A stretch of DNA of 64,000 nt. It comes from Hydrogenophilus thiooxidans. Its GTDB lineage: Bacteria; Pseudomonadota; Gammaproteobacteria; Burkholderiales; Rhodocyclaceae. Each line of letters starts with the position of its first letter. Positions within the stretch are counted from its first letter, which is position 1. Under the pieces are notes generated by a model. That model did not search any database, was not told the DNA's origin, and was given only the letters and a program-made list of their open reading frames with translations. The DNA is taken from assembly GCF_019049855.1 (NCBI RefSeq), contig NZ_JAHLSY010000013.1:1-64000 (forward strand), written 5' to 3'. The position numbers and the translations under genes were made by a program. Positions 1 to 14,700 of this stretch are shown piece after piece.

Positions 1-194
1 GTTTCGCGTTCCTTTTGCAGTGCCCTGAGGTTCGAGACCCCGTGGCGACGCAGGCAGCGATCGAGCGCCGAGCGGCTCAGATTGGGGTTGAGGAAGGTCA
101 GGGCAAGCTCGCGGTGACTGACCGAAGCCGGTGCTTTTTGGATCTCGAGACGAATCCGCGGTGTCGTTCGGGCGTTGGCATGAATGCGCGGCAT
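1..194 (-). pseudogene. IS481-like transposase remnant (N-terminus, runs off window)
   Basis: The ATG at 192-194 is preceded by a good ribosome binding site (GAAGGAG). The first residues, MPRIHANARTTPRIRLEIQ, look like the start of IS481-type transposases. They run almost directly into LSRSALDRCLRRHGVSNL, a block that normally follows the helix-turn-helix region and a linker. About 60-80 residues therefore seem to be missing in frame between residue ~30 and the LSRSALD block. The catalytic DDE core would lie beyond the window edge. A DNA-binding-defective, inactive transposase is the inference; the family call rests on these two motifs only. Confidence 0.6.
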
Positions 195-302
195 GGCTAT
201 GCTCCTTCGTTCAATGCTTTCCAGCCTTGGAACAAGCGCTCAAGGAGTCGGTACGCTTCGAAAAGTTTAGCACGACTTCGTATAATGATATGGGATCTGA
301 CA
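1..302. mobile_element. Edge of an IS481-like insertion sequence (partial)
   Basis: The first 194 bases encode an IS481-like transposase N-terminus on the minus strand, and about 108 bases of non-coding leader follow up to 302. Read on the minus strand, the sequence beginning at 302 starts TGTCAG, and many IS481-family ends begin with TGT. This would place the element's end one base past the TAG stop of the neighbouring glycosyltransferase (304-306). The other end lies outside the window, so neither the inverted-repeat pair nor a target duplication can be checked. The element marks the left border of the AT-rich glycan island. Confidence 0.5.
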
Positions 303-303
303 G

Positions 304-3300
304 CTAAGCTGATAGGAAATTTTTGCCAGATACCAAAATATCATTCCACAAATATATAATATTATCAATTGAAAAATTGTTGGCAACCCAGCTGTTAAAT
401 TTTTCAGCATCTTCGACAAGAGAGTAACGATCATTGAAATAATGAAGGATTTCGATTATCCAAATATTGATTTCTTTAGGAAGAAATTTAATGGGTGAAT
501 TTTCTAAATACTGTGAAATTGAGTCTGAGGAAAGTAAAGGAGTACCAATGGCGGCGAATTCAATCATCAAAGGCAAGAATTTAGGTAAATCATCAGGGGA
601 AATGTCTGGTAAAATTACTAATTGCAAGTCGAGTTCGAATAATTCTTCAGGATTATTATCGCAGGGTTTCAAAAAACAATAATGTACATTTTCTAGATTA
701 TATTGAGTAGTAATTTTTTCTTTAAAATCGTCGAGAAACAAAAAAGTCCAATCTACAAATTCGCATGTTCTTTTTACAATTTCTAAGATAACTTGTATCG
801 AAGCTTCATTTATCAAAAGACAGCCGCTTTTTAATTTATAGGTTGAAAGAAAGTTTTGTGTTTTTATTTTTTTTTCATAAAAAAAACACCATTTTTGGTA
901 GTCAATAGCATCAGGAATTGTATAGATTGGAATTTTTTTTGAAATATTTATGAGTTTTTGTGAAATGTAAGAGTGATTGGTAATAATTCCATCGATGTAT
1001 TCTTGTTGATACTCGTATAAAACTGTGGCAAGTTGTCTGGAGAAAATTATACTGATATCAGAAATGCTTATATAGATTTTTAGATTTGAGTGTATTCTTT
1101 TCCAAGCCATTACTCTTTTGTGCAAATCTGTTTCAAGACAATGGTGAAGTAAAATAGTATCAGGTTGCATTTTCATAACTTCAGTGACGCTTGGAAGACG
1201 AACTTTATAGAGTATTTTTGCTTGGACCCAACCATTATCAACAAGTTTTTTAAATGGTAAATAGATTCGGCTGTTGTGACATTTGTCATCGTTTGAAAAA
1301 GCAAGAATTTTTAAACGGTTTTTTTGGTAGTGTTGCCAAGAGATTGGAAATGTTAGATCAAGATCTGGCGTGGTTTTAGAAAAGTCGAAATGTATGGATG
1401 AGGAGATACAGAATTGAAAGTTGTCTCTATGAATGGAGAGAAGTGTTTGATGGTTTCTTTCAATTTCTTCATAGTGTTTTTCTTGAGCAACATATGTATT
1501 TAATAATTCCGATAAAATAGCATTGTCATAATGTTTAATTTTACTTAGCGGTTCAACAAGTACATCAAGACCTGATTTTTTAGCTTTTAGACAATAGTCA
1601 ATCTCAAAATCAGCAATTGGAAAACTGCTGAAGTTGAAACCGCCAAGTGACTCAAAAACAGTTCTTTTTGTGCAAAAACATACTGAGGTAATTGCGTCTA
1701 CTTTATGTAAAAAATCCAATTCATTGTAAAAGCCTTTTTCGGTAATCGGCTGGTTAGCATAGGCTGGTCTTGCAACATCCCACAATCTGCTTGATCCAAG
1801 CCAAACTCCAGCAGACTCTATTAAGTGGTAATTTCTTTGAACAATTAAAGGGCCAACTGCAGCAATGTTTTGTCTAATAGCTGCAGAAACCAGTTGGGAT
1901 AGCCAGTTAGATTGACAAATTTCAACGTCAGCGTGTAGAAAAACGAGAATATCTCCTTTAGCGTGCTGAGCACCGACCATGTAAAGGCGAGACAATGAAT
2001 ACTCAAGGTCGTCAGTAATTATTTTTGTATTTTTATGAAGTTCAGTAATAGTATTAATAAACTCAATAATTCTAATGTCAGAAATCTTATGCAATACAAG
2101 CACTAATTCATAGTTAGGGTATCGAGTTTCATGAATAAGTTTTGGAACAGTATTAATGATCAAATCGAAAAGATTTGGAATAGGCATTACAATGCTGACA
2201 AAAGGTTCAATAACTAATTGGTCTTTTGTTAGTTTTGGACTACAAACATCGTTATCTACTTTATTGCAGTAAGGAATACTAACCAAAACTTCAGGAATAT
2301 GCAATATTTCACCTAATTCATTGTAGTGAAGAACTGCTTGAATAAAAGAAAGCAAAGGTGTAAATCTGATCTGGCTAATAAGTAATGTTTTAAACCAGAT
2401 TGTCTGGTCAATATAGGTAAACTCTTCAAAAAAGATTCTATCAAAATCCGGCTTAAATTTCGGATTTTTTCGTATACCAGAAGTAACGTAATCATGATCA
2501 CAATAGATTGCTGCAGCGTTCTTGTTTGCAATAAAATAATCACAAATGAGATACAAAGATTCTGGAGATAGTTTAAATCCTGGGGGAAGTATTGAAAAAA
2601 AATCGCCTATCAGATCTGTTGGTAAATTTTGTACAACAAATTGAAACGCATTTTCTGGATTAAATGTATTAACATGAATCCATCTTAGAAAATCAGTTGA
2701 ATTAAAAAGTGGATTTGGAGGTGGTATGTCAGAAACCACGATCCATCTCCAATTCGAATATAGCTGATCTCTTAGAGAATCAGAGCTATCTGCTAGTAGA
2801 TCTAAATCTTTTGATGAGGCAAAGGTTATTATTGCGACCAATGGTTTTTTCTCCCAAGTAAAAATCCGCTCAGCTATTACCTCAGCATCTACAAGCTGCA
2901 ATGATCGCATTTCTAACCACTTATGATATTGATCGAGTTTTATTTTCCTTTTTGCATCTTCTGCAATATTTTCCCATTTTTTAATTTCAGATTCTATATA
3001 TTTTGAAAGATCATTACGACAAAAAATTTCTGCATCGATTTTTCTTTGTTTTAATGTGTCTAAGGTGGAAATCGCAATACGCCATTCATACTGTGTTTTA
3101 TTTTCAGGTGATGTTGAGATTCCTCCACCAAAACGATATTTTAGAAGTGGCTCAAACCAGTAAATTAATGATTTTTTTAAATAGGCTCTGAAAGTAATAG
3201 TCTGATCATCATAGATATTTGGGAAGATGTATGGTGATTCCAAAATTAGCGACGGAGTAAATGCGGCTGATCCTCCAATTACAAGTCCGTGTGAAGTAGG

Positions 3301-3783
3301 ATTAAGCGCTATCGATTTTTCATCAAGAATCCTCTGATTAATCGGCGGAAACCAAATCCCCTTACTGCGATTTTCGTTATCAATGATTTCAACTGGTGTA
3401 TGGATCAGTGCGAATTTATTGCAGCCAAGTTTTGTCCATATTTCAGTTAATACAGATACTCTGTTGGGCAGAGAGATATCGTCACCGCCTTGAGGAACAA
3501 TAAAATCAACCAGTTTAGAAAGTTCCTGTACTGCAATGAGACCGTGTTTGGTCACACCAAGGTTCTTTTTTCTTCTTATTATTTTATAGTCGTGTTTGCA
3601 TTTTTTTTTCAAAAAGAAATTTTTGATTATTTCAAATGAGGAATCAGTGGATGCGTCGTCAGTAACATAAATTAGTAGGTTCGGGTAGTTTTGTGAAATG
3701 GCGGACTCTAATGCGTCTTCGATGAACTTTTCATGATTGTAAACTGAAATGTACAAAGCGACGCGCGGATATTGCTTACTCAT
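304..3783 (-). CDS. Giant multidomain glycosyltransferase (GT2 + GT2-like + GT2 + GT4-like), AT-rich
   Basis: This protein of about 1159 residues probably assembles a surface polysaccharide or a glycan on a cell-surface protein. Residues 1-230 form a GT2 domain (YISVYNHEKFIEDAL, then TDDAS). Residues ~305-500 form a GT2-like module. Residues ~528-790 form a second clear GT2 domain with FLHADVE in place of the DxD motif. Residues ~823 to the end are GT4/GT1-like. I chose the second ATG (3783), which has GGAAG upstream; the ATG at 3795 has no clear ribosome binding site. From residue ~300 onward it aligns by eye with the glycosyltransferase at 9706-13617, but its codon use is extremely AT-rich. 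It is the last gene of the operon and ends next to the IS element. Acceptor and sugar are unknown. Confidence 0.85.
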   Translation of the reverse strand: MSKQYPRVALYISVYNHEKFIEDALESAISQNYPNLLIYVTDDASTDSSFEIIKNFFLKKKCKHDYKIIRRKKNLGVTKHGLIAVQELSKLVDFIVPQGGDDISLPNRVSVLTEIWTKLGCNKFALIHTPVEIIDNENRSKGIWFPPINQRILDEKSIALNPTSHGLVIGGSAAFTPSLILESPYIFPNIYDDQTITFRAYLKKSLIYWFEPLLKYRFGGGISTSPENKTQYEWRIAISTLDTLKQRKIDAEIFCRNDLSKYIESEIKKWENIAEDAKRKIKLDQYHKWLEMRSLQLVDAEVIAERIFTWEKKPLVAIITFASSKDLDLLADSSDSLRDQLYSNWRWIVVSDIPPPNPLFNSTDFLRWIHVNTFNPENAFQFVVQNLPTDLIGDFFSILPPGFKLSPESLYLICDYFIANKNAAAIYCDHDYVTSGIRKNPKFKPDFDRIFFEEFTYIDQTIWFKTLLISQIRFTPLLSFIQAVLHYNELGEILHIPEVLVSIPYCNKVDNDVCSPKLTKDQLVIEPFVSIVMPIPNLFDLIINTVPKLIHETRYPNYELVLVLHKISDIRIIEFINTITELHKNTKIITDDLEYSLSRLYMVGAQHAKGDILVFLHADVEICQSNWLSQLVSAAIRQNIAAVGPLIVQRNYHLIESAGVWLGSSRLWDVARPAYANQPITEKGFYNELDFLHKVDAITSVCFCTKRTVFESLGGFNFSSFPIADFEIDYCLKAKKSGLDVLVEPLSKIKHYDNAILSELLNTYVAQEKHYEEIERNHQTLLSIHRDNFQFCISSSIHFDFSKTTPDLDLTFPISWQHYQKNRLKILAFSNDDKCHNSRIYLPFKKLVDNGWVQAKILYKVRLPSVTEVMKMQPDTILLHHCLETDLHKRVMAWKRIHSNLKIYISISDISIIFSRQLATVLYEYQQEYIDGIITNHSYISQKLINISKKIPIYTIPDAIDYQKWCFFYEKKIKTQNFLSTYKLKSGCLLINEASIQVILEIVKRTCEFVDWTFLFLDDFKEKITTQYNLENVHYCFLKPCDNNPEELFELDLQLVILPDISPDDLPKFLPLMIEFAAIGTPLLSSDSISQYLENSPIKFLPKEINIWIIEILHYFNDRYSLVEDAEKFNSWVANNFSIDNIIYLWNDILVSGKNFLSA

Positions 3784-3820
3784 CACAACTTCCATACTTC
3801 ATAAATTAACTATTTATTAA

Positions 3821-4915
3821 CTATTTTTGAATAAAATACATCACTGACTCAGTTATTGATTCGCTATAATGTCTCAATTTGATTTCATAATTATTTTTAA
3901 AATCTAAAACTAGGCGAGGAATTTTCCAAAAGTCGCCAGGTCGATGATAAACAGAAATAGCTAATCTACAGTTGGAATTTGTAATCGTTTTTTTTGCTCC
4001 CCTTAATGCATTTAGTTCCGCCCCTTCAATATCCATTTTTATGTATGTAGGTTTTTCAATCAAAATGTTATCGAGTAAGTCCAAATCCACTATGGCATTT
4101 CCATTATTTGATAAATGAGATGATGAGCCATTTCTAAAAAATTTAGCTTTGGTCGATTTATCATATAATCCAAAAGGATAACAATAAATATTTGGAAATG
4201 ATTTCAAATTCTCAAGACATTTTTGATAGTTTTCAAGACATGGTTCAAATAGATGGATAGATCGGTAGTGAGAACACTTTTCTGCAAATAAACGGGAAGT
4301 TTCTCCTTGATAGGCACCAGCATCAATAAAAACCTCATCATATTTTTTTAATTTCAAAAAATCTTCAAAATATTGTTTATTACGATTCACTTTGACTTTT
4401 TCTATAAGCGTCAGATCATATGTCAACCTAAAGATTATTAAATAATACAAAATTTCTCTAGATTCTTGTTCATCGATTATGTTGAAAAGCCATTGATAAT
4501 TTTGAACGTTTTCCAAAAATTCATTCTCAAATTCTTCATTAAAATTGATTTCCGGAAGTTCTAATTTTGTAACTTTTAAAAAACAAAAATAATCAATGTT
4601 TTCTATGCCAAGAGCATCTAATTTTTTTTTCGCTTGAATAGGCCGTTCTCCTGCAGCATTTAAAACAATAGCATTTCTTGGCAATTCATGAGTTTTAAAT
4701 ATAGGAAGATTGCAATATGATGTTTCTGTTGTGAAATCGTCAACAACGCCGTTTATTTTAAGTTTTGAACAAATCTTTTCAGTATATTTATTTCTGCCAA
4801 GAACAAATTTCGGTAGATTTGATTCATATAGAAATCTTTTGCAGGAGTTCTCTTTTTCACTAGGAAAACGATGATTAATAGCTGCTTTATAAATATCAAA
4901 CGTATTAAATCTCAT
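3821..4915 (-). CDS. FkbM-family methyltransferase with N-terminal Rossmann-like domain
   Basis: This 364-residue protein is probably an O-methyltransferase acting on a sugar of the glycan made by this operon. The SAM-binding motif FIDAGAYQGETS (~residue 195), the LFEPCLENY acidic loop and KMDIEGAEL (~295) are the hallmark FkbM sequence. Residues ~30-115 (VLGRNKYTEKICSKL, then GVVDDF) look like the small nucleotide/sugar-binding Rossmann module often fused to FkbM enzymes; a similar module begins the radical SAM protein at 7267-8529. The start overlaps the stop of the upstream Gfo/Idh gene by four bases (ATGA), which suggests translational coupling. Base composition is AT-rich like its neighbours. 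The exact methyl acceptor cannot be read from sequence. Confidence 0.85.
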   Translation of the reverse strand: MRFNTFDIYKAAINHRFPSEKENSCKRFLYESNLPKFVLGRNKYTEKICSKLKINGVVDDFTTETSYCNLPIFKTHELPRNAIVLNAAGERPIQAKKKLDALGIENIDYFCFLKVTKLELPEINFNEEFENEFLENVQNYQWLFNIIDEQESREILYYLIIFRLTYDLTLIEKVKVNRNKQYFEDFLKLKKYDEVFIDAGAYQGETSRLFAEKCSHYRSIHLFEPCLENYQKCLENLKSFPNIYCYPFGLYDKSTKAKFFRNGSSSHLSNNGNAIVDLDLLDNILIEKPTYIKMDIEGAELNALRGAKKTITNSNCRLAISVYHRPGDFWKIPRLVLDFKNNYEIKLRHYSESITESVMYFIQK

Positions 4916-6069
4916 AATACTTTCTCCACTGTTCCTTTTTTTGCAGATCTTGCTATGGCTTCAAGAAAACGCAAACCATCTATTGAGTGTTCAATACCGA
5001 ATATATATTTGTTAGAATGTTTTTTTTGTAATTTGAATTGACGTAATGAAATGGCGATGTCATAATAATAATTAGCCAATGCCTCTATGAATCCCGATGG
5101 ATGGCCAGCTTTAAATCTTTGATATCTTTCATGATTTGCGACCGATACGATTGGGGAAGCTCGATCTACCCGGATCGTATTTCCGTGCAGATCTGTTAAA
5201 AATAAGTACTCTGGATTTTCTTGTATCCATTCTGCACTTCCTTTAGATCCGAAGATTCTAATTTTAAGTCCATTTCTGTAACCTAATGCGGTTTTCGTGT
5301 ACCAAAAGTTACCTATAATATTTTTTTCAAATTTTGATATGCAATGTATCGTGTCTGTAATTTTGAAATTGCCGAAATTTTCGGCAATTGCAAATAACTC
5401 AATAGGTTGCGAGTTAGTTAAAAAATAGGTAATCATGTATAAATGAATTCCTAAGTCAAGTGAAATAGTTGGAATTTCACGATCAATGAGTCTCCAGTTT
5501 TGTGGAGTTAGTGGTTGGTTATTGTTTAATAATCGTACAAAAGAATCCTGCGGCATTTCACAAAGTATTTGATTAATTTTTCCTAACTTACCTTCCATTA
5601 TTTTTGCCTGTAATTCGCGTACCATTGGGTATCCAGTATAGTTATTTATTACGACTAAAAAACCACTATTTTCTTCTAAGATTTTATTGAGTTCGATTGC
5701 TTCGTTAGTGGTTGATGTAAGTGTTTTTTCACATATTACTGGAATTTTATTTTTGATGCACATTTTTATATGGCTGAAATGTTGATGTTGCGGTGTTAAG
5801 ATAACTATCGCATCTATATTTTCCAACTCATTTTCGATTAATTTTTCAATGTCGTCATATGCTTTGTCTATAGGTATACCATATGCTTTCGCCGTTTCTT
5901 TTGAAATTTCAATATTTCGACTAAAGCATCCTGCTGTCAGTTTAAACTTACCATCGAGTTCTATCGCTATTTTATGTGCTCTGCCAACTGCAGAGTTAAT
6001 TCCACCACCAATAAATGCAACTCGTAAACTATCGAATTTAGACACTTTTGGTCCTTTCTTCAATGACAC
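4912..6069 (-). CDS. Gfo/Idh/MocA-family NAD(P)-dependent sugar oxidoreductase
   Basis: This 385-residue dehydrogenase probably oxidises or reduces a (nucleotide-)sugar for the glycan. A Rossmann glycine motif (AFIGGGINSAVGRAH) lies at residues ~18-32. EKTLTST at ~111 corresponds to the family EKP motif with its catalytic lysine, with Thr in place of Pro. The C-terminal half has the usual substrate-binding domain, including a DLGIHLYM stretch that carries the family's active-site His. The start codon lies inside the 3' end of the ATP-grasp gene (32-base overlap), and the stop overlaps the FkbM start, so all three are probably co-translated. The substrate is not predictable from sequence. Confidence 0.85.
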   Translation of the reverse strand: MSLKKGPKVSKFDSLRVAFIGGGINSAVGRAHKIAIELDGKFKLTAGCFSRNIEISKETAKAYGIPIDKAYDDIEKLIENELENIDAIVILTPQHQHFSHIKMCIKNKIPVICEKTLTSTTNEAIELNKILEENSGFLVVINNYTGYPMVRELQAKIMEGKLGKINQILCEMPQDSFVRLLNNNQPLTPQNWRLIDREIPTISLDLGIHLYMITYFLTNSQPIELFAIAENFGNFKITDTIHCISKFEKNIIGNFWYTKTALGYRNGLKIRIFGSKGSAEWIQENPEYLFLTDLHGNTIRVDRASPIVSVANHERYQRFKAGHPSGFIEALANYYYDIAISLRQFKLQKKHSNKYIFGIEHSIDGLRFLEAIARSAKKGTVEKVL

Positions 6070-7219
6070 TAATTCTTTTTTTAATTATCGGCATCAATTC
6101 GCGCATTTGTTTTGAACTATCAAATTCAATAAAAACAATGCCAAACTTATCATGTGGTGCTGGATTTAAAAATTCTCCACTTTTCTTTAATGGAAAAAAA
6201 TCAACTTTACTAAATGGTATATTTTTAAATGAAACACCGTAAATTGATAATTTCTTGTTAGCTGTTATTGTATATCTGCCTACATGTTTAGTTTTTCGAT
6301 TTCTAAAAAACTGAAAATTTTCATTTATAAATGGCTTTAAAAAACTTTCATAGTAATTGAAACCGGTAGCCTTTTCTAATAGCAAACCAAATAAGTCTCC
6401 TGGACACCTTCTCATTATTTCAATAAATGTGATATAGTTCCCGTTTGATATAAACTGAGTATGTATTAAGCCATCTGTTAGGTTAAGACTTTTTGCAAGC
6501 AAGTTTATATTTTCTCTTACAATTTTTTTTGCAGTTTTAGAGAGTGTTGAAGGGTAGTATGAAGAGTTAACTTGATATGGATATGTTGTACAAAATTCAT
6601 CGACGAAAAAATCTAAAGCAATAGCTTTGTTTTCTAAAAAAGCAGAATGGCTATGAAGTTTACCCTCTATAAATTTCTCTGCAATTAAGATTTTTGTGTT
6701 GTACTTTTTGCTAATTTTTTTAATGATAGTTTTTATTTCTTGATCATTATTCACGAACTGAATTCCGATTCCGCTAAATAGATTAATCGGTTTTATTAAA
6801 TATGGAGCATTTATATTTATTTCTATTTGGTCGATATCTTCTATATTAATAATTTGAAACTCTGGTATAGGTAATTTAAGAGTTTTTGCTATGGTTCTAA
6901 ACTCATTTTTATGGTGTAATTTTTTTGTAGTTTCGAATGTATCAAAACCAGGAAAATTATATTTTTCTGATAGTATTGATCCAGTCAAATAAGAGTAATC
7001 ATTGCATGTTGGAATAATGTAATCGAATTGTTCGTTTTCAATTATTTTAATAATGTTTTGATAATTGGAATAGTCAGCGTAATAGGATTTGTCTGCAAAT
7101 TTATGGCATGGATCATTTTTTTTGTTGCCGCATACATGAACTTTGAACCCTTTCTTTTTGAGTAAAAAGAAAAGAGGGATAGCGCTATAACTTGATCCTA
7201 ATAAAAGAGTTTTTTTCAT
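6038..7219 (-). CDS. ATP-grasp domain protein (carboxylate-amine ligase type)
   Basis: This 393-residue protein has a Rossmann-like pre-ATP-grasp domain (TLLLGSSYSAIPLFFLLKKK), then an ATP-grasp fold. The visible elements are the lysine strand APYLIKPINLFSGIG, the KILIAEKFIEG hinge and an acidic metal site in FIEIMRRCPGD. Such enzymes activate a carboxylate as an acyl phosphate and join it to an amine or thiol. Between a sugar dehydrogenase and a radical SAM gene it could attach an amino acid or similar group to a sugar, but that is inference. It is strongly AT-rich. Its 3' end overlaps the Gfo/Idh start, and 47 bases separate it from the radical SAM gene. Confidence 0.8.
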   Translation of the reverse strand: MKKTLLLGSSYSAIPLFFLLKKKGFKVHVCGNKKNDPCHKFADKSYYADYSNYQNIIKIIENEQFDYIIPTCNDYSYLTGSILSEKYNFPGFDTFETTKKLHHKNEFRTIAKTLKLPIPEFQIINIEDIDQIEININAPYLIKPINLFSGIGIQFVNNDQEIKTIIKKISKKYNTKILIAEKFIEGKLHSHSAFLENKAIALDFFVDEFCTTYPYQVNSSYYPSTLSKTAKKIVRENINLLAKSLNLTDGLIHTQFISNGNYITFIEIMRRCPGDLFGLLLEKATGFNYYESFLKPFINENFQFFRNRKTKHVGRYTITANKKLSIYGVSFKNIPFSKVDFFPLKKSGEFLNPAPHDKFGIVFIEFDSSKQMRELMPIIKKRISVIEERTKSV

Positions 7220-7266
7220 TTCTGTTAATCCTTCACAATTTTATTGGTCTGTTATATACAAACAAA

Positions 7267-8529
7267 TTAAATTCGCTCAATCGTTCGAACTCCTTCTTTT
7301 TCTACAACTTTAATTGCGACATCAAAAAACCGATGCATCCCATGTTGCATACACTTATTACAGAATCCATTTGCTTTGCGATTTTTTAGAATTTCTTCAA
7401 GCGGGATGTCTAGAAAGCTCCGTGTCAAAGTGGGCTCCATAAGATTACTGCAGTGAACTACTGATGTATCCCATCTGATTGTCGGGAAACATTTGATCAT
7501 GAAGCATGGCCGATCTTTTACAGACTGTGCGTAAGCTAACTGTTCTTCAATGGAGTAAAGAAGAAGATCATTTGCAATTTTCATCGTTTCTGGGATAGGC
7601 ACGCCATAGAGAACATGATGTAGCATTTTTTCAGGAAATACGTGGGCTAGAATAGGTTCAAAGTAGAAACCGAGCTGTTCTGCAATTTTTTTAACCTCAT
7701 CGAAATCTTTGTTTATATTGTCTTTGTAAATGTGGTACGAAATTCTGACAAAAGTAGCTGGTGAATGTTTTTCTATGTATTCTTTAAGCTTATATAGGTT
7801 TTTTTCAAACTTCTTCCATTTTCCGCCTGTTCGTGCAATTTCAAAATTTCTTCCGGTTCCTGAGCAAGGTACTATTAATACGTCTGGTTCAGTTTTAATA
7901 AGTTTTTCGAGATTTCTTATGTCCATTAAATTAGTTGAAATCTCAACAGATATTCCTTTATTATGAGAAATTTCAACAATTTTAGGTAAGTCTGGATTGA
8001 GAAGTGGTTCCCCCCATTGATACAAATATACTGAGTTTAAAAAAGGTATTTCGTTAGACAATTTATGAAGAACTAATTCGTATGTTTCTGCTGACATCAT
8101 CCCGCCGCGTTTGTTTGCTCCCGGTAATCCCATGTTGCATGTAATGCATTTCAGATTACATATTCCAGAGACTTCAATTGTTGGGTAAAAATCACAAAGA
8201 TCCGTTGATAAGAAAAACGTTTCTCCGCGAACCCACCCGTTTTTAATGCAAAATTCTTGTGCCAATCGTCTAATTTCTCTATGCTTTGCTGTGATTATAA
8301 TTATAGCTTCATTAGGTGTAAAATTCGAAAAGAAATCATCCGGGTGAATGACTGGGTATCCAAAATGCACTGAGTCTTTAAATTTTCTTGAGTCAATAAA
8401 ACCATTAACTTTGAGATTCAAAAAGTCAAGACGTCTCACAAAACCTTTGCCTTCAAGGTTGGCTGAATAGATAAATATTTTTTTTGTACGAATGATTTTT
8501 TTAAAATCTTCTGGTGTGATCATGTTCAT
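7267..8529 (-). CDS. Radical SAM/SPASM protein with N-terminal Rossmann-like domain
   Basis: The protein has 420 residues. Residues ~10-110 form a small Rossmann-like domain (IFIYSANLEGKGFVRRL, then GFIDSRKF). The radical SAM core starts at ~120 with CNLKCITC, the CxxxCxxC motif that holds the SAM-binding [4Fe-4S] cluster, followed by YLYQWGEPLLNP, the usual GGEPL-like strand. The C-terminal part (~335-405) carries further cysteines (CFMIKCFP, VVHCSN, FCNKCMQH), as expected for SPASM/twitch auxiliary Fe-S clusters. Family members do peptide modification, dehydrogenation or epimerisation. Here a sugar-modifying role is inferred from the operon. AGGA precedes the first ATG closely; an ATG two codons further in is equally possible. 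Confidence 0.85.
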   Translation of the reverse strand: MNMITPEDFKKIIRTKKIFIYSANLEGKGFVRRLDFLNLKVNGFIDSRKFKDSVHFGYPVIHPDDFFSNFTPNEAIIIITAKHREIRRLAQEFCIKNGWVRGETFFLSTDLCDFYPTIEVSGICNLKCITCNMGLPGANKRGGMMSAETYELVLHKLSNEIPFLNSVYLYQWGEPLLNPDLPKIVEISHNKGISVEISTNLMDIRNLEKLIKTEPDVLIVPCSGTGRNFEIARTGGKWKKFEKNLYKLKEYIEKHSPATFVRISYHIYKDNINKDFDEVKKIAEQLGFYFEPILAHVFPEKMLHHVLYGVPIPETMKIANDLLLYSIEEQLAYAQSVKDRPCFMIKCFPTIRWDTSVVHCSNLMEPTLTRSFLDIPLEEILKNRKANGFCNKCMQHGMHRFFDVAIKVVEKEGVRTIERI

Positions 8530-8541
8530 TTTTCCTGTAAT

Positions 8542-9702
8542 TTATGATCGAGAAAGAATTATTTCTTTGATTGCATTGATATTTATACTTCTGTTTTCTC
8601 CGAGTGGGGTAAATTCTCTTTTTGAGAGGTTGCTGATAACATCAGCTGCCACTTTTTTCGCATCGAGAGATAGAGATGAGAAACGAGTTGGTACGCCTAG
8701 GCTTTCAAAAAAATTATCTGTTTCGATAATAGCCATTTTTGCGAGTAGATCTTCATCGCCTACCATACCCCATACCCGATTAGCATATTGAGCCAACATC
8801 TTTTTTTTGTATTCAAAGTTCCACTCCCATACACCACCAAGGATTAATGCCAGTGTTTGTGCGTGGGTTAAATCGTATAGTGCTGTAATTTCATGGCCAA
8901 TGAAGTGCGTTGCCCAATCTGTGGGTACGCCTCTACTAAGTTGACCACTGGCTGCTTGTGCTGCGCACCACATCGATGTCGCTCTAAGTTCGTAGTCGTT
9001 TGGATTGGCTAGTAAATCGTGTGCAATCTCTTTTATTGTAACAAGCAGCGCCTCTCCAAGTCTGTCTTGTAATGGTGCTTTTCTGGGCCAAGTTATATAC
9101 TGCTCTAAGACATGTACAAACATGTCAACGATTCCAAACGCTGTTTGTTTTTGTGATAAAGTGAAGGTGGTTTCTGGGTCTAGAACACTGAATCTTGGAT
9201 ACAGTTTATGTGAATAGAAAGAAATTTTTAATTTTTTTGAACGATTGCTCAGTACAAATGCATTGTTAAATTCAGTGCCAGAACCAGGTACTGTTTGAAT
9301 GCATCCAAATGGTAATACTCTATTTGGTTCAGTTTCATTTTTAAGGAGAATCTGCCATGGATCCTTTTTCTCATAGTAAAATGCCAATGCAATATACTTA
9401 GCTGCATCAATAACAGAACCACCTCCGGCTGCTAAAATAAATTCAATGTTTTCTTTTCTAGCTATTTCTAATGCTTTCATGCAAGTTTCTATGTCTGGAT
9501 TTTGCTCAATACCGAAAAACTCAATAACCTCTTTATCCTGTAGAGCCTTACGTATCTGTTCAAGAACTCCGTTTTTTTTGATTGATTCTTTTCCGCATAG
9601 TAATAATATCTTTTTTTCATTTTTCATTTCGTTCCTAATAAGACTTATTGATCCTCTTCCGAAAATAATCTTTGTGGGATTATATGAGTAAAAATTATTC
9701 AT
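8542..9702 (-). CDS. Iron-containing (group III) alcohol dehydrogenase
   Basis: This 386-residue oxidoreductase interconverts an alcohol and an aldehyde or ketone with NAD(P)H. The N-terminal dinucleotide domain shows FGRGSI and the diagnostic AAGGGSVIDAAK. The C-terminal helical domain holds probable metal ligands in VDMFVHVLEQY and in TDWATHFIGHEI with DLTHAQTLAL. Within a glycan operon it may generate or reduce an intermediate that is then handled by the ATP-grasp, radical SAM and Gfo/Idh proteins. It begins three bases after the stop of the large glycosyltransferase and is the first fully AT-rich gene of the island. The true substrate is unknown. Confidence 0.87.
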   Translation of the reverse strand: MNNFYSYNPTKIIFGRGSISLIRNEMKNEKKILLLCGKESIKKNGVLEQIRKALQDKEVIEFFGIEQNPDIETCMKALEIARKENIEFILAAGGGSVIDAAKYIALAFYYEKKDPWQILLKNETEPNRVLPFGCIQTVPGSGTEFNNAFVLSNRSKKLKISFYSHKLYPRFSVLDPETTFTLSQKQTAFGIVDMFVHVLEQYITWPRKAPLQDRLGEALLVTIKEIAHDLLANPNDYELRATSMWCAAQAASGQLSRGVPTDWATHFIGHEITALYDLTHAQTLALILGGVWEWNFEYKKKMLAQYANRVWGMVGDEDLLAKMAIIETDNFFESLGVPTRFSSLSLDAKKVAADVISNLSKREFTPLGENRSININAIKEIILSRS

Positions 9703-9705
9703 AAG

Positions 9706-12700
9706 TCACCTTTTGGTTATATTTTCTAAAAACAAATCATTCCATTTTGTGATCGTTTTGTCAATTATATAGTTTAAAATGACCCAATTGTGGAGATCTT
9801 TTCCATTTAGTTTTCTATTTTTTAATTGGGATATTATTGTTTCTATCCATTCTTTTGGTTTGTTTGGAAGACGCACAATTGGGGGATTATTGGTTTGGTA
9901 TGGCCTGATATCTGTGGCAATTACCGGATATCCCAAAGCCCCATATTCGATAATTCTCAAGTTACTTTTTGCCTCATTAAATTCATTGTACTCAAGTGGT
10001 GCCAAGGCAAGATCGAGATCGAGCTCTGCCATTTTCTTGGGGTAGTCGTGAAAGTCTACCCAGCCGTGCTTTTCTGCAACCAGGTGTTCGAATTCAGGAA
10101 GCCACATGCCCATGAAAACCCAATGGACTTCGTCTTTTGTGGCTTCGATCACTGGGATCAGCAGTTCCAAATCGCCACGGTGTTGCATCGCACCGACCCA
10201 GCCAACGCGTGGTTTGCGTGTGAGTCGTTCGGGATCCTGCCGTTTCCGTTCGAGTTCTTGGTAGAGCGGCTCCCACGTCTCCCATTCAATCGCGTTGGGA
10301 ATGACATGGACCTCGGTGCCAGGGGCGATATCGGTCACCAGTTCGGCAAGAGGGTCGGTGCTAACGACGACCGCATCGGCAAGCGCAAACATTTTGCGTA
10401 GGCGCGCCCGTGCGTCTGGCGTGGTGCGGCGCGCAAGGTGGTACATACTGCTTTTTTGCGGAACAGCGTCTAAGCGATCGTCCATGCCGAAGATGAGACG
10501 CAGGTTGGGGTAGAGGCTTTTCCAGGCTTCAACGGTCTCTTCGACTGCTGGTCCGAGCCGTTGGTGGAGCAAAATCACATCCGGTTTGAGTTTGCCGAGT
10601 TCGCTTACGCTCGGCAAACGCGCTACCTCTTCGGGTACCGATTCGGCTTGTACCCATCCGGCGCGCACCAAGGCTTTCAGCGGCATGCGAACGCGGTACT
10701 GGCCGCTTCCCCCTCTGACGGGGAAGCCGAGCACTTTGATGCGGTTGGTGTGGTGGCGCTGCCAAGAGAGCGGGAAATTGAGGTCGAGCGTAGGGGTTGT
10801 GGCGGCGTAGTCGAAGTGCAAAGATGCGAACGGATCGACGACAAGCCGTTCGCCCCAGCGCGCAAAGAGCGCACGGTGGGTTTGCGTACGTGCTTCTTGG
10901 TGCTGAAGAAGCGCCAAGGGTTTGCGCAACATCCGCCCAACGACGGCGCTCTCGTGGTGGATGAGGCGGCTTAAGGGTTGGACACGGATTTCGAAGCCGG
11001 CTGCCTCGGCTTTGAGGCAATAGTCGATTTCAAAGTCGGTCAGCGCAAAGGTTTCTTGATCAAAGCCGCCGAGTTGATGAAAGAGGGTTTTACGGGTGGT
11101 AAATCCCACCGAGGAGAGGGCGCTCACCCGGTGGGGGAGTGCAAGCTGTTTGAGTGCGCCCGTGTCGTTGAGTCTCGTTCCGCGGTAGGCAGGGCGTGCC
11201 GGAGCCCAGAGGTCGCTACCGCCCAGCCAGTAGCCAGCGTTGTCGATCAGGCTGAATTCGGGCTGCACAAGGAGCGGCCCAACGGCCCCTACTTTGGGGT
11301 CGAGGGCTTCGCGCACCAGCCGCTCCAGCCAATGGGGTTCGCGAGCTTCGATGTCGCAGTGGAGAAAAACCAGGATCTCACCGTTTGCTGCCGCTGCGCC
11401 GACGTTGTAGAGGCGCGCCAGCGCGTAGGGGTTTTCGTCGCGCACGATTGTGACGTTCGGGTGGTGCGCGCCGATTTCGGCAAAGAGCGCGGCGATGTCG
11501 GGGTCTGTGGTGGCGTGATCGACCAGGATCAGTTCCCAATCGGGGTATTGGGTGTGTTCGATGAGTGAGGTCACCGCCGCTTCGGCCAGGTGGTAGACGT
11601 CGGCAACCGGCATGATCACGCTCACTTTGGGCAAGAGGCTCACTTGCCGTTCGATCCGCCAGGTGTCGGGTAGAAGCCCGGGCAGAATCGTGACCGGTTG
11701 CTGGGTACGGGCAAAATGGTCTTCGAGCGCTAAGCGGCGCGCGAGCGCCTCTGGCGATTCGGCGCTGGGTTCGGAATCGACGGGGGCAGGTCGTTGGTTC
11801 GTCGCTTCCGGAATGGAGAGGAGCGGCTCAGCGATGTGGTGGATACGCGCTTCGGGTCTTTCACTGAGGCGCAACAAGGCGTCGTACCGTTCGGCGTTCG
11901 GGTAGGGTTGCAAGCCCCCCAGCGCGATGAGGGTTTCGGTGCGAAACCATACGGCGGGGCCGATGTAGTCGAAGCCGTAGAGGAGTGTCCGATCGAAGTC
12001 GGGTTTGAACCAAGGGCTGAAGCGGGTCTCTCCTTGAAGATGGTCGTGGTCGCTATAGACCGCGGCAACTTGGGGGTGGTCGACCAACGCTTCGGCAACA
12101 AGGAGCAGCGCTTCGGGCGCGAGTTGAAAACCGGGGGGGAGCATGGCAACCGCATCCCCGCCATATTCGGGCAGTAGCGCATTGACCGCCTGCGCGACGA
12201 TTTCTGGTGCGTCGAGGGTGTCGAGTTGCAGCCAACCCAGGAAATCGGCTTGTTCGAAAATAGGATCGGGAACCGGTTGGTCTGAGACGACGATCCAGCG
12301 CCAGTGGGGGTAGAGTTGCGTTTGCAGTGAATCGGTGGTCTGCGCAAGAAGCGGGAAGTCGCTCTGCTTTGCAAAAGTGATGAGGGTGATCACTGGCCGC
12401 TGGGCCCAGCGCATCATCCGTTCTGCGAAAACCTCTGCGTCTGCTTCTTGCAGAGAGCGGCGTTTGCGCCACGCTTCGTAATGGTCTTCGGGGTTGTAGA
12501 TCGCTTCCGGTGTGGGGATGGTGACGGGGGAAATGGTCAGCTCGTGGGGCGGAGGAAGCTCTTTTTCGGGGGGTAAGACGGTGTTGAGGATCGCGGCGTA
12601 CTCGGCAGCGTGGCTTTCGAGGGTGCGGTGGTCGCGCACGTAGGCGTAGGCAGCTTCGCCCAGTTCCTTGCGCGTTGCGGGGTTTTCGATGAGGTCGATG

Positions 12701-13617
12701 AGCGTTGCGAACCAAGCTTCCGGATCGTTGGGGAGGACTTTGGCCAACCCAAGCGCTTTGGCTTCGCTAAACGGCGCGACGTCCGAGCAGACGGTGGGAA
12801 CCCCCAAGGCGCTGTATTCGACCCATTTGAGGTCCGATTTGCAGCGGTTGAACGGGGTGTCGTCGAGCGGCGCCAGCGCGATGTCGAGGTTAAATTTGGC
12901 GAGCGTGGGGAGGTAGTTCCAATAGTCGACGGGGGTTTTGATGAGGCGGACGTGTTCGCACGCTTCAAGGTCTTGGGTCCAGGCCCCCATCAGGACGATC
13001 TCCACCCGCTCCCGGTAGAGGCTGGCGATGCGCAGAAGCGCGCTTTCGATCTTTTTGAGGTCCAGTGTGTGGCTGGCGGTACCAGCAAAACCGATGCGGA
13101 TGGGGGCATCGCTCTGTTTCGCTGGCCGGGCACGGCGAGCTTCCGCGATGAACTGGGCGGGCAGGTGATTGGTGAAGAGGTGGCACGGTCGATGCGGCGC
13201 CCCCAGGGTTTCAGCAAGGGGTTGGGTGGTGGTGATGACAGGGAGTTCAGGAAAATTTTTGAGGAACTTGTCGATTGCGCCGATGATGCTTGACGCATAG
13301 TAATTGAATTCGGGGTGGTTGGGCGTCAGCGCGGAGAGGTTGTCGTCGATTTCAAAGAGGCAGGGGTAGTTAGGGACGAGCTTTTCGGTGACGAATTCGT
13401 AATGATGGACGTTGACGAAGTCGCGGTGAATGAGGTAGAGGTCACAGCCCTCCTCGAATTGACTGGGGGAGGGGATGAGGCGAAAGCGGACGTGGTGCGC
13501 CAGCGCTTTGAGCGGATTGAGGATACGCAGGTTGGGGAGGAAGTGGGAAAGCGAATGCGGCGAGCAGACGCCAACAGTGATTTTTTGCCCAAAGTTTTGG
13601 GTTTCGATAATGGGCAT
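9706..13617 (-). CDS. Giant multidomain glycosyltransferase (GT4 + GT2-like + GT2 + GT4), mosaic composition
   Basis: This 1303-residue protein is the first gene of the glycan operon. Residues 1-350 are GT4-like (IRIGFAGTASHTLDL, then LDIALAPLDDTPFN). Residues ~405-620 form a GT2-like module. Residues ~665-940 form GT2 (VSVIMPVADVYHL, FLHCDIEA). Residues ~960 to the end form a second GT4 unit (RVGWVGAMQHRGDLELLIP, LDLALAPLEYNEFNEAKS). The middle and C-terminal parts match the glycosyltransferase at 304-3783. Codon use is GC-rich down to about position 10,060 and then turns AT-rich for the last ~110 codons, which points to recombination inside the gene. It probably builds a repeating unit of a surface polysaccharide; donors and acceptors are unknown. 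Confidence 0.87.
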   Translation of the reverse strand: MPIIETQNFGQKITVGVCSPHSLSHFLPNLRILNPLKALAHHVRFRLIPSPSQFEEGCDLYLIHRDFVNVHHYEFVTEKLVPNYPCLFEIDDNLSALTPNHPEFNYYASSIIGAIDKFLKNFPELPVITTTQPLAETLGAPHRPCHLFTNHLPAQFIAEARRARPAKQSDAPIRIGFAGTASHTLDLKKIESALLRIASLYRERVEIVLMGAWTQDLEACEHVRLIKTPVDYWNYLPTLAKFNLDIALAPLDDTPFNRCKSDLKWVEYSALGVPTVCSDVAPFSEAKALGLAKVLPNDPEAWFATLIDLIENPATRKELGEAAYAYVRDHRTLESHAAEYAAILNTVLPPEKELPPPHELTISPVTIPTPEAIYNPEDHYEAWRKRRSLQEADAEVFAERMMRWAQRPVITLITFAKQSDFPLLAQTTDSLQTQLYPHWRWIVVSDQPVPDPIFEQADFLGWLQLDTLDAPEIVAQAVNALLPEYGGDAVAMLPPGFQLAPEALLLVAEALVDHPQVAAVYSDHDHLQGETRFSPWFKPDFDRTLLYGFDYIGPAVWFRTETLIALGGLQPYPNAERYDALLRLSERPEARIHHIAEPLLSIPEATNQRPAPVDSEPSAESPEALARRLALEDHFARTQQPVTILPGLLPDTWRIERQVSLLPKVSVIMPVADVYHLAEAAVTSLIEHTQYPDWELILVDHATTDPDIAALFAEIGAHHPNVTIVRDENPYALARLYNVGAAAANGEILVFLHCDIEAREPHWLERLVREALDPKVGAVGPLLVQPEFSLIDNAGYWLGGSDLWAPARPAYRGTRLNDTGALKQLALPHRVSALSSVGFTTRKTLFHQLGGFDQETFALTDFEIDYCLKAEAAGFEIRVQPLSRLIHHESAVVGRMLRKPLALLQHQEARTQTHRALFARWGERLVVDPFASLHFDYAATTPTLDLNFPLSWQRHHTNRIKVLGFPVRGGSGQYRVRMPLKALVRAGWVQAESVPEEVARLPSVSELGKLKPDVILLHQRLGPAVEETVEAWKSLYPNLRLIFGMDDRLDAVPQKSSMYHLARRTTPDARARLRKMFALADAVVVSTDPLAELVTDIAPGTEVHVIPNAIEWETWEPLYQELERKRQDPERLTRKPRVGWVGAMQHRGDLELLIPVIEATKDEVHWVFMGMWLPEFEHLVAEKHGWVDFHDYPKKMAELDLDLALAPLEYNEFNEAKSNLRIIEYGALGYPVIATDIRPYQTNNPPIVRLPNKPKEWIETIISQLKNRKLNGKDLHNWVILNYIIDKTITKWNDLFLENITKR

Positions 13618-13666
13618 TCGGGGCCTCCTCCTGCGTTTTTCTTTATTATAACGAGCCGCAACCGCG

Positions 13667-14629
13667 TTACAACCACCCTTTGCGCTTGAAGTAAAGGTAG
13701 GGTGCGATTCCCGAAATCACCATCATCAGGAGCGCCAGAGGATAGCCTAGCTCCCAATGCAGTTCTGGCATGTGATCGAAGTTCATGCCGTAGATGCTGG
13801 CAACGAGCGTGGGCGGCAGGAAAACCACCGCAGCGATCGAGAAGATTTTGATGATCTGGTTTTGCTGGATGTTGATGAACCCCTGTGCGGAGTCCATGAG
13901 AAAGTTGACTTTTTCGAAGACGAAGGTGGTGTGGCTCATCAGGGTTTCGATGTCGCGCATCGTTTCGCGGCAGTTTTCTTGCAGTTCTGGGTTGCTGTTT
14001 TTGAGTTGCCGCAGGAGGTAACCCAGCGCCCGCTGGGTATCCATTAGACAGAGCCGGATCCGTCCGTTGCTGTTTTCGATTTTGGCCAAGCGGTCGATCG
14101 CTTCTTCCAAGTCGGCATTCTCTTCTTCGAGCACCATCACGCTGACGTCCTCGAGCCGTCGGTGAAGGTCTTCGATGGTGTCGGCCAGGTTCTCGACTTT
14201 TTGTTCGAGAATGGTCACAAGTAGCGTCATCGGGTCGCTGGCCGGGATTTGTCCATGCCGGGCGCGCATGCGCAGCAGACGAAAGTCAGCAAGCTCTTCT
14301 TCGCGAAAGGTGATCAACCGCTGCGGTTGCAAAATGAATGCGACCGTTGAGGTGATGTGCCGTCCTTCTTCCTGGGCAAGGAACAGCGAGTGGATGTGCA
14401 GCCCTTGTTGGTCTTCGAAGAAGCGGGCTGAGGCTTCGATTTCTTCGACGTCGTCGACGTCGGGCAGTTCGGCGTTGATGATGCGCTCGATCTGAGCGCG
14501 CTCTTCCGGGCTTGGGTCGATCGCGTCGATCCAAAGGGCGCGGTTGAGCGAATCGGGACGCTCGGACGCGTTTTCCGAAAGGCGGAGTTCGCTGAGACAG
14601 CCGTTCTTGCTGGTGAATGCGCGGAGCAT
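13667..14629 (-). CDS. corA: CorA-family magnesium/cobalt transporter
   Basis: This 320-residue inner-membrane channel for Mg2+ (also Co2+/Ni2+) has the signature YGMNF at ~residue 278, at the end of the first C-terminal transmembrane helix (FSIAAVVFLPPTLVASIYG). The second helix (LGYPLALLMMVISGIAPYL) ends in the basic tail KRKGWL. The long N-terminal cytoplasmic part is the alpha/beta funnel with the willow helices. Length and topology match full CorA. It is divergent from the diguanylate cyclase gene and has a TATAAT -10 box 30 bases upstream. It could also supply nickel or cobalt ions, but that is speculation. Confidence 0.93.
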   Translation of the reverse strand: MLRAFTSKNGCLSELRLSENASERPDSLNRALWIDAIDPSPEERAQIERIINAELPDVDDVEEIEASARFFEDQQGLHIHSLFLAQEEGRHITSTVAFILQPQRLITFREEELADFRLLRMRARHGQIPASDPMTLLVTILEQKVENLADTIEDLHRRLEDVSVMVLEEENADLEEAIDRLAKIENSNGRIRLCLMDTQRALGYLLRQLKNSNPELQENCRETMRDIETLMSHTTFVFEKVNFLMDSAQGFINIQQNQIIKIFSIAAVVFLPPTLVASIYGMNFDHMPELHWELGYPLALLMMVISGIAPYLYFKRKGWL

Positions 14630-14658
14630 GTGGTGTGACCCTGACCTATTTTGCGGCT

Positions 14659-14664
14659 ATTATA
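14659..14664 (-). promoter_or_regulatory. Probable -10 box of corA
   Basis: TATAAT reads perfectly on the minus strand 30 bases upstream of the corA ATG, which would give a leader of about 20 bases. No good -35 hexamer is visible at 16-18 bases. The same AT-rich patch could serve the divergent diguanylate cyclase gene. Confidence 0.4.
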
Positions 14665-14700
14665 GTGTATGTCATTGACGAAACCGTGACGAAGGGTGAG

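Follow-up and report, generated by a model that had tools for sequence, protein, structure and literature searches.

A rare radical SAM enzyme in a probable flagellin glycosylation cassette of Hydrogenophilus thiooxidans

Described glycan systems and the five-gene operon

Flagellin glycosylation islands (FGIs) with DegT/FdtB aminotransferase and FkbM methyltransferase genes are well described (PMC4875605, PMC5109656). As set out for enterobacteria, these islands occupy the fliDC/AZ locus, are variable, exchangeable and low in G+C, and carry DegT/FdtB, FkbM and glycosyltransferase genes (De Maayer & Cowan 2016, PMC4875605). Here we analyse an operon of five genes, encoding an iron-containing alcohol dehydrogenase (Fe-ADH), a radical SAM enzyme, an ATP-grasp ligase, a Gfo/Idh dehydrogenase and an FkbM methyltransferase, at positions 3821-9702 of the first 64,000 nucleotides of contig NZ_JAHLSY010000013.1 of Hydrogenophilus thiooxidans (this whole stretch is called the window). 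Most likely the five genes are an imported cassette for an unusual decorated amino sugar on the flagellum.

The closest characterized analogue, likened by gene families and not by direct sequence comparison, is the flagellin of Clostridioides difficile type B. According to the published accounts of locus CDR20291_0241-0247, N-3 of the 3-amino sugar Fuc3N carries a Gly-Ala-taurine unit as its acyl group, and mutants of 0245 and 0246 (a ligase and a dehydrogenase-like gene) lose the terminal unit (PMC5207245, PMC5207246). Like our system, the type B locus has PF00535 glycosyltransferases (downstream of its fliC), an FdtB-like aminotransferase, an ATP-grasp protein (PF13535) and a neighbouring dehydrogenase-like gene. 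In contrast to the window, its dehydrogenase resembles ornithine cyclodeaminase/alanine dehydrogenase rather than Gfo/Idh and a FemAB-like acyltransferase is present; no radical SAM enzyme, Fe-ADH or FkbM protein is named in the passages compared. SfmE of Shewanella oneidensis, likened here without sequence comparison, is an ATP-grasp_4 flagellin-modification protein whose deletion shifts the flagellin mass, by slightly less than deletions of its neighbours do (PMC3765264). Dickeya 2B12, assigned an FGI of type 9 lacking FkbM (PMC4875605), corresponds by strain name to one of the loci recovered below (L059), which holds DegT, ATP-grasp and Gfo/Idh genes without FkbM. The words 'ATP-grasp', 'carbamoyl' and 'dehydrogenase' are absent from the main text of PMC4875605. 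To the enterobacterial type of island the window adds a radical SAM enzyme and an Fe-ADH ('radical SAM' was not looked for in that article).

All five open reading frames lie on the minus strand between two giant GT2-type glycosyltransferases, and the Pfam family calls for the five proteins are above the curated cut-offs. The enzymes, their families, order and strand, and the two flanking glycosyltransferases are as a sequence-only reading of the window had described them. The features are as follows.

1-300, minus strand: repeat at the contig end, probably part of a mobile element of unconfirmed family, recognized by its copies in the same genome
304-3795, minus strand: giant GT2-type glycosyltransferase B (GT B), in the variable AT-rich part (Pfam)
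3821-4915, minus strand: FkbM-family methyltransferase with an N-terminal extension domain (Pfam Methyltransf_21, 1.3e-12; TIGR01444, 1.1e-19)
4912-6069, minus strand: Gfo/Idh/MocA NAD(P)-dependent dehydrogenase, GTG start (Pfam GFO_IDH_MocA, 7.5e-18)
6038-7219, minus strand: ATP-grasp carboxylate-amine ligase (Pfam ATP-grasp_4, 1.9e-9)
7267-8529, minus strand: radical SAM enzyme with an N-terminal Rossmann module (about residues 1-115, as modelled) and a twitch-like four-Cys C-terminus (Pfam Radical_SAM, 1.8e-10)
8542-9702, minus strand: Fe-ADH, YqhD-like (Pfam, 2.6e-42)
9706-13617, minus strand: giant GT2/GT1-type glycosyltransferase A (GT A), in the conserved flank (Pfam)

Counted in transcription order from GT A onward, the first three gaps measure 3, 12 and 47 bp; two overlaps come next, of 32 bp (ATP-grasp/Gfo) and 4 bp (Gfo/FkbM), and a gap of 25 bp precedes GT B. 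The short gaps and overlaps among the five genes are therefore operon-like. The G+C content is 32.7% at 304-9836 versus 62.1% at 13618-64000, which marks an AT-rich island, and GT B and GT A are 34% identical along ∼930 aa. Structure matches were obtained for the Gfo/Idh protein (3v5n, 1.1e-55) and the FkbM protein (2py6, 3.3e-21); the nearest matches of the ATP-grasp profile are 4dim, carbamoyl-phosphate synthase and the L-amino acid ligase 3vot. A phage or plasmid origin of the cassette was considered and dropped: the radical SAM protein had no match in phages, and in plasmids it matched four records, each at <60% identity, while the DNA of the five genes matched none.

Genomic site and the ATP-grasp core

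In a 2.31-Mb genome of 71 contigs, the window occupies the left end of its contig (C5). Bases 1-300 have 14 matches in this genome including the site itself, several of them at contig ends, and the open reading frame at 194-3 within the repeat gave no Pfam match. Another contig of the genome, C32 (9,824 bp), starts with FdtA and an FdtB-like aminotransferase, followed by GGDEF, fliC, flaG, fliD and fliS. Pfam identified FdtA (PF05523, 2.8e-58), the aminotransferase (DegT, PF01041, 4.2e-119) and flagellin (Flagellin_N, 2e-46), and the GGDEF, FlaG, FliD and FliS proteins were also assigned by family search. In all loci compared here, gene names without a cited family call (FliZ, DcyD, FliY and others) were assigned by eye. 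The aminotransferase hit no FdtB model in NCBIfam, its best match being PseC, below the cut-off. Its amino group is placed at position 3 because FdtA is its neighbour. C32 would therefore supply, at the family level only, the 3,4-ketoisomerase FdtA and the 3-aminotransferase that make up the dTDP-Fuc3N/Qui3N pathway.

A genome of the same genus (G002) carries on one contig CorA, GT A (94% identical to ours), a GT2, a DesI-like aminotransferase and others, and then GGDEF, fliC, flaG, fliD and fliS (GGDEF, fliC and fliD by Pfam, flaG and fliS by position and by eye). At the nucleotide level it matches the window at 9836-16432 (94%) and C32 at 1706-8790 (84%), the latter up to the end of the G002 stretch compared. 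The match with the window stops at 9836, so that the variable region begins in the last 131 bp of GT A. Since both flanks are common to the two genomes and the middle is swapped, the site is most likely, judged from sequence, an FGI with an exchangeable cassette, and we infer that C5 and C32 are adjacent. The site has the glycosyltransferases, sugar-modifying genes, low G+C and variability between close strains of an FGI, and synteny with G002 and C32 places it beside the flagellin operon. The sequence-only reading had found no standard nucleotide-sugar genes. This is true of the window only, as FdtA and the FdtB-like gene of C32 are placed next door by synteny; most likely it is an assembly artefact, arising because the window stops at a contig end. 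The FGI context is not visible from the window alone, and an assembly break can make an ordinary island look like an unprecedented pathway.

In G002 the same chromosomal site holds an alternative cassette (L132, 8028-12751) with the DesI-like aminotransferase (468 bits, under the model cut-off of 650) and two proteins without a Pfam match. The gene at 11636-12751 reads as ATP-grasp by eye only, Pfam finding nothing.

Using a profile of four ATP-grasp proteins against 84,980 species genomes, we obtained 103 candidate stretches and 76 loci. Because two short ATP-grasp patterns served to select the 76 loci, and each locus was trimmed to ∼10 kb either side, the figures apply only to that ATP-grasp subfamily and span. 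A Gfo protein at least 40% identical to ours was found in 58 of the 76 loci, at most 1.5 kb from the ATP-grasp gene in 57, and a further 8 had a weaker Gfo only. FkbM (at least 120 bits) was present in 31/76, FdtA in 16/76 and a DegT aminotransferase of any kind in 69/76. By best score, the aminotransferase is nearer the FdtB-like protein of L028 (a locus described below) in 15 loci and nearer the DesI-like protein of G002 in 54, with none in the other 7. The ATP-grasp-Gfo unit accompanies enzymes for 3-amino and probably also 4-amino sugars, so its most likely target is the amino group or its attachment. Flagellar genes occur in 22 of the loci; a 23rd was dropped because the fliA hit of L093 (7136-7726) falls in the same region as L034 (Limnobacter litoralis), where an 849-aa open reading frame is by eye a primary sigma factor. 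Homologues of the giant glycosyltransferases were found in 12/76 loci, and all 12 have flagellar genes, compared with 10 of the 64 others (Fisher p 2e-8). When seven related enterobacterial loci were thinned the link persisted (7/7 versus 8/62, p 6e-6). Mantel correlations between the core families were high (0/500 permutations), although shared ancestry alone could produce them.

Five of the ATP-grasp loci (L051, L056, L058, L072 and L095) share a distinct protein family of ∼790 aa, of which the L058 member combines a GT2 N-terminus with a Radical_SAM domain (Pfam).

The complete five-gene set was found in three genomes only among the loci examined: in the window, in L028 (genome G209) and in L044 (Methylococcaceae UBA2780), the only one of the 76 ATP-grasp loci with all five. 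L028 comes from a genome of the same taxonomic order as that of the window, and its proteins are 42% (ATP-grasp), 42% (Gfo), 43% (FkbM), 29% (Fe-ADH) and 43% (radical SAM) identical to ours. It also carries FdtA, a DegT aminotransferase, glycosyltransferases, an ABC transporter protein and a bacterial sugar transferase, as in a polysaccharide cluster; the FdtA and FdtB-like proteins of C32 are 71% and 60% identical to those of L028. In L044 the five genes are accompanied by FdtA, an aminotransferase and a giant glycosyltransferase, and the cassette ends beside flgL-flgK-flgJ. We therefore rejected the idea that the five genes are one conserved pathway: the full set occurs in three loci, while the combination of ATP-grasp and Gfo, with or without FkbM, is common. 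This combination is a widespread core unit, and the radical SAM enzyme and Fe-ADH are a rare optional module on it. The five enzymes had been described as tightly coupled, which holds for their operon-like spacing but not for a single pathway.

The radical SAM enzyme and its partners

Aligned with one another, 13 radical SAM homologues originating from six genomes or plasmids showed an invariant CxxxCxxC motif (C124, C128 and C131) and four further invariant cysteines, C342, C360, C390 and C393; W353-D354 and H399 are likewise common to all 13. A SPASM domain has a seven-Cys motif and two auxiliary clusters, whereas twitch enzymes of the BtrN type have CxxxCxxC and four cysteines for one auxiliary cluster. 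With only four C-terminal cysteines, enough for one auxiliary cluster, the enzyme falls short of the seven of SPASM and is therefore predicted to be twitch-like. The SPASM label given to it earlier claimed too much.

Against solved structures, the radical SAM profile matched the tetraether synthase 7tol (5.4e-10), BtrN (7.1e-7, spanning residues 120-191 only), two other radical SAM proteins, 8wm2 (2.4e-6) and 5wgg (2.7e-6), and, as further sugar enzymes, the cytosylglucuronate decarboxylase BlsE (5e-5) and DesII (1.3e-4). BtrN, DesII and BlsE have sugar substrates, and BtrN has one auxiliary cluster of four cysteines, which those of our enzyme resemble. Its core is similar to theirs by profile. 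Unlike them, it has an extra N-terminal Rossmann module (as modelled) and lies in a cell-surface glycan locus, and its relatives pair with an Fe-ADH and with a paralogue lacking CxxxCxxC. The N-terminal stretch matched 3nkl, a UDP-D-quinovosamine 4-dehydrogenase (1.5e-4), VioB (0.0095) and the perosamine N-acetyltransferase PerB (0.019). Modelled alone, the N-terminal 115 residues gave a fair structure (pLDDT, the predicted local distance difference test score, 82). Re-ranking of a Foldseek list by VIA-align placed FkbM 2py6 first (residues 31-150; Z 10.3, 110 aligned, 3.5 Å), followed by WbaP (Z 10.0), the acetyltransferase domain of PglB (9.3), succinyl-CoA synthetase (8.6), 3nkl (8.5), a Rex repressor (8.4) and an N-acetyltransferase solved with UDP (8.0). 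On the evidence of this model, the N-terminus has a type of Rossmann domain that several sugar enzymes share. Pfam at E 10 found nothing for five of six N-terminal pieces and a weak XdhC_C Rossmann match (0.15) for the sixth, from L029. Using hhalign against the radical SAM profile, the N-terminal domain of FkbM aligned weakly (probability 8) and the C-terminal domain of a C-methyltransferase more strongly (79.5, E 1.5e-5).

Relatives of the radical SAM enzyme are few; the following tallies include its own genome. Single-sequence searches found it in 12 of 61 relatives at E ≤ 1e-3, mostly as distant matches, and in 5/398 genomes of the phylum at E ≤ 1e-20, and a three-sequence profile found it in 7/399 genomes of the order (1e-30) and 2/369 of the class (1e-40). 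The first single-sequence scan of a collection of genome contigs gave no relative, and a scan of viral contigs gave distant radical SAM proteins only (10 loci, 20-27% identity).

The nearest solved structure to the Fe-ADH is YqhD (4qgs, 9.6e-104), but with 394.9 bits it lies below the cut-off of 645 of the YqhD-type equivalog NF011717. Residues D193, H197, H266 and H280, which we take to be its metal ligands, are invariant in three loci. Fe-ADH and radical SAM genes are direct neighbours in the window, L028, L044 and L143 (genome G545); no Fe-ADH match was found in the 13-31-kb stretches of the other eight radical SAM loci (L024, L029, L030, L031, L032, L144, L145 and L160). The window Fe-ADH is 26-33% identical to those of L028, L044 and L143; aligned with its counterparts in the other two five-gene loci, it is 26-27% identical. 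That these enzymes have diverged yet stand beside the radical SAM gene suggests a repeated need for Fe-ADH activity there. The paralogue, which lacks CxxxCxxC and keeps the four auxiliary-cluster cysteines, is encoded in L028 (10865-11953) and L044 (5893-6891), adjoining the radical SAM gene in both, and in L143 (8414-9694), where it is one gene away, beyond the Fe-ADH gene. It was not found in the genome of the window, in a search without a positive control.

Two loci from genomes of different families (L029, 8576-12356, in G100; L160, 10255-14084, in G983) encode a tandem of three radical SAM enzymes belonging to this family, close to SDR-type epimerase and C-methyltransferase-like genes and a B12-binding radical SAM gene (the SDR and B12-binding proteins assigned by Pfam in L160). 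The tandem set is a second uncharacterized glycan radical cassette. A 65-kb plasmid of Deltaproteobacteria bacterium Smac51 (CP026658.1; L024, 1683-24582) has six paralogous radical SAM genes of the family, annotated hypothetical, with perosamine synthetase, asnB and carbamoyl phosphate synthase annotated nearby.

Proposed pathway and alternatives

We believe that the cassette is probably the exchangeable part of an FGI, and that it combines radical editing of an amino-dideoxyhexose with amide acylation and O-methylation. The reactions and their order, as we infer them, are these. Presumed RmlA and RmlB would supply dTDP-4-keto-6-deoxyglucose, which FdtA and the FdtB-like aminotransferase of C32 would convert to a dTDP-3-amino-3,6-dideoxyhexose of the Fuc3N/Qui3N type. 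The ATP-grasp enzyme would form an amide between the sugar amino group and a carboxylic acid or amino acid. By NAD(P) chemistry the Gfo/Idh enzyme would make or adjust the acyl unit or the sugar, and the FkbM enzyme would O-methylate. The radical SAM enzyme would abstract hydrogen from the (nucleotide-linked) sugar, held in part by the N-terminal Rossmann domain, and give a carbonyl by dehydrogenation or dehydration; reduction by the Fe-ADH would make the net change an epimerization or deoxygenation. The giant glycosyltransferases would transfer the product to flagellin. Amide attachment and methylation, proposed from the window alone, are made plausible by the comparable flagellin of C. difficile type B. 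The undescribed pathway proposed with them is most likely a flagellin glycosylation cassette on a common core instead of a stand-alone route, with a genuinely unusual radical SAM and Fe-ADH pair.

Should this hold, a sugar made by radical chemistry would be part of flagellin glycans. The ATP-grasp-Gfo/Idh unit of many flagellin and polysaccharide loci, for which we found no assigned role, would then gain a testable one, the amide decoration of amino-dideoxyhexoses. It is quite possible, if somewhat less likely than not, that the enzyme represents an undescribed class of carbohydrate radical SAM enzyme, of twitch type and incorporating a Rossmann module like those of FkbM, PglB and 3nkl, that edits nucleotide-linked amino sugars for flagellin and O-antigens; part of the family has as partners an Fe-ADH and a paralogue keeping only the auxiliary cysteines. 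If so, it would be the first known case of radical chemistry in the making of flagellin glycans, within the literature searched: no report was found in open-licence literature by title and start of abstract, and a report elsewhere is possible.

Several points weigh against the proposed pathway. The best PDB profile match of the radical SAM enzyme, 7tol, is a lipid enzyme, and its best NCBIfam match is a tungsten-cofactor maturase family (74 bits, cut-off 380). The predicted structure of the full-length protein was too poor for use (pLDDT 55). Foldseek with the N-terminal domain gave no match at E ≤ 0.001, succinyl-CoA synthetase (Z 8.6) and Rex repressors (Z 7.5-8.4) score close behind the sugar enzymes, and the modelled Rossmann module may serve to bind NAD or have a purely structural role. 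Small aldehydes are the usual substrates of YqhD-like enzymes, and RmlA and RmlB are presumed. The join of C5 and C32 rests on synteny, and the terminal repeat has several copies. Finally, eleven flagellar queries had no match in the 20 kb of L028; as the five genes occur there, the pathway is not specific to flagellin.

The radical SAM enzyme and Fe-ADH might instead make a small acid or aldehyde precursor for the ATP-grasp enzyme, the radical step then not being on a sugar. In pyrrolysine synthesis a radical SAM enzyme, an ATP-grasp enzyme and a dehydrogenase (PylB, PylC and PylD) are used together, and PylB makes 3-methylornithine for PylC. Of these three only the ATP-grasp was matched in our searches (PylC, 2.4e-9; also 4ffl, 8e-7), and YqhD, nearest to the Fe-ADH, is of an aldehyde reductase family. 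We consider this unlikely: the core mostly occurs without this radical SAM enzyme, a close homologue lying in the stretch of one of the 76 loci (L044), and the radical SAM family occurs without this ATP-grasp, which had no match in L143-L145, L029, L024, L030-L032 or L160, although the edge of L024 carries the gene annotated carbamoyl phosphate synthase. The N-terminal domain, modelled as a sugar-enzyme type, also argues for a sugar substrate. A ribosomally synthesized and post-translationally modified peptide (RiPP) as the substrate of the radical SAM and ATP-grasp enzymes is very improbable and was rejected, although adjacent genes for these two are common in RiPP clusters and 5wgg, matched by the radical SAM profile, is a peptide-modifying enzyme. 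With gaps of at most 47 bp, no precursor peptide gene fits between the five genes; the radical SAM enzyme has only four auxiliary cysteines; and FdtA and an aminotransferase accompany the other five-gene sets, whose settings are flagellar or polysaccharide loci. Together with the BtrN, BlsE and DesII matches and the predicted N-terminal fold, these observations agree with the sequence-only reading in preferring sugar modification.

The cassette could also decorate a surface polysaccharide (O-antigen or exopolysaccharide), its proximity to fliC being incidental, as the setting of L028 among glycosyltransferase, ABC transporter and sugar transferase genes without a flagellar match would suggest; likewise, 54 of the 76 ATP-grasp loci show no flagellar gene in the stretch. 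This we regard as improbable, since the variable site lies directly between GT A and the fliC operon in G002, and here by synteny, and homologues of the giant glycosyltransferases accompany flagellar genes in all 12 of the ATP-grasp loci that have them. Decoration of flagellin is thus preferred.

In ten ATP-grasp loci (L035, L046, L047, L049, L050, L053, L067, L078, L082 and L083) the ATP-grasp gene is near genes for a fatty-acid-desaturase-family protein (assigned by Pfam for the L035 member) and a methyltransferase-like protein; these loci perhaps encode a hydroxylated variant of the decoration.

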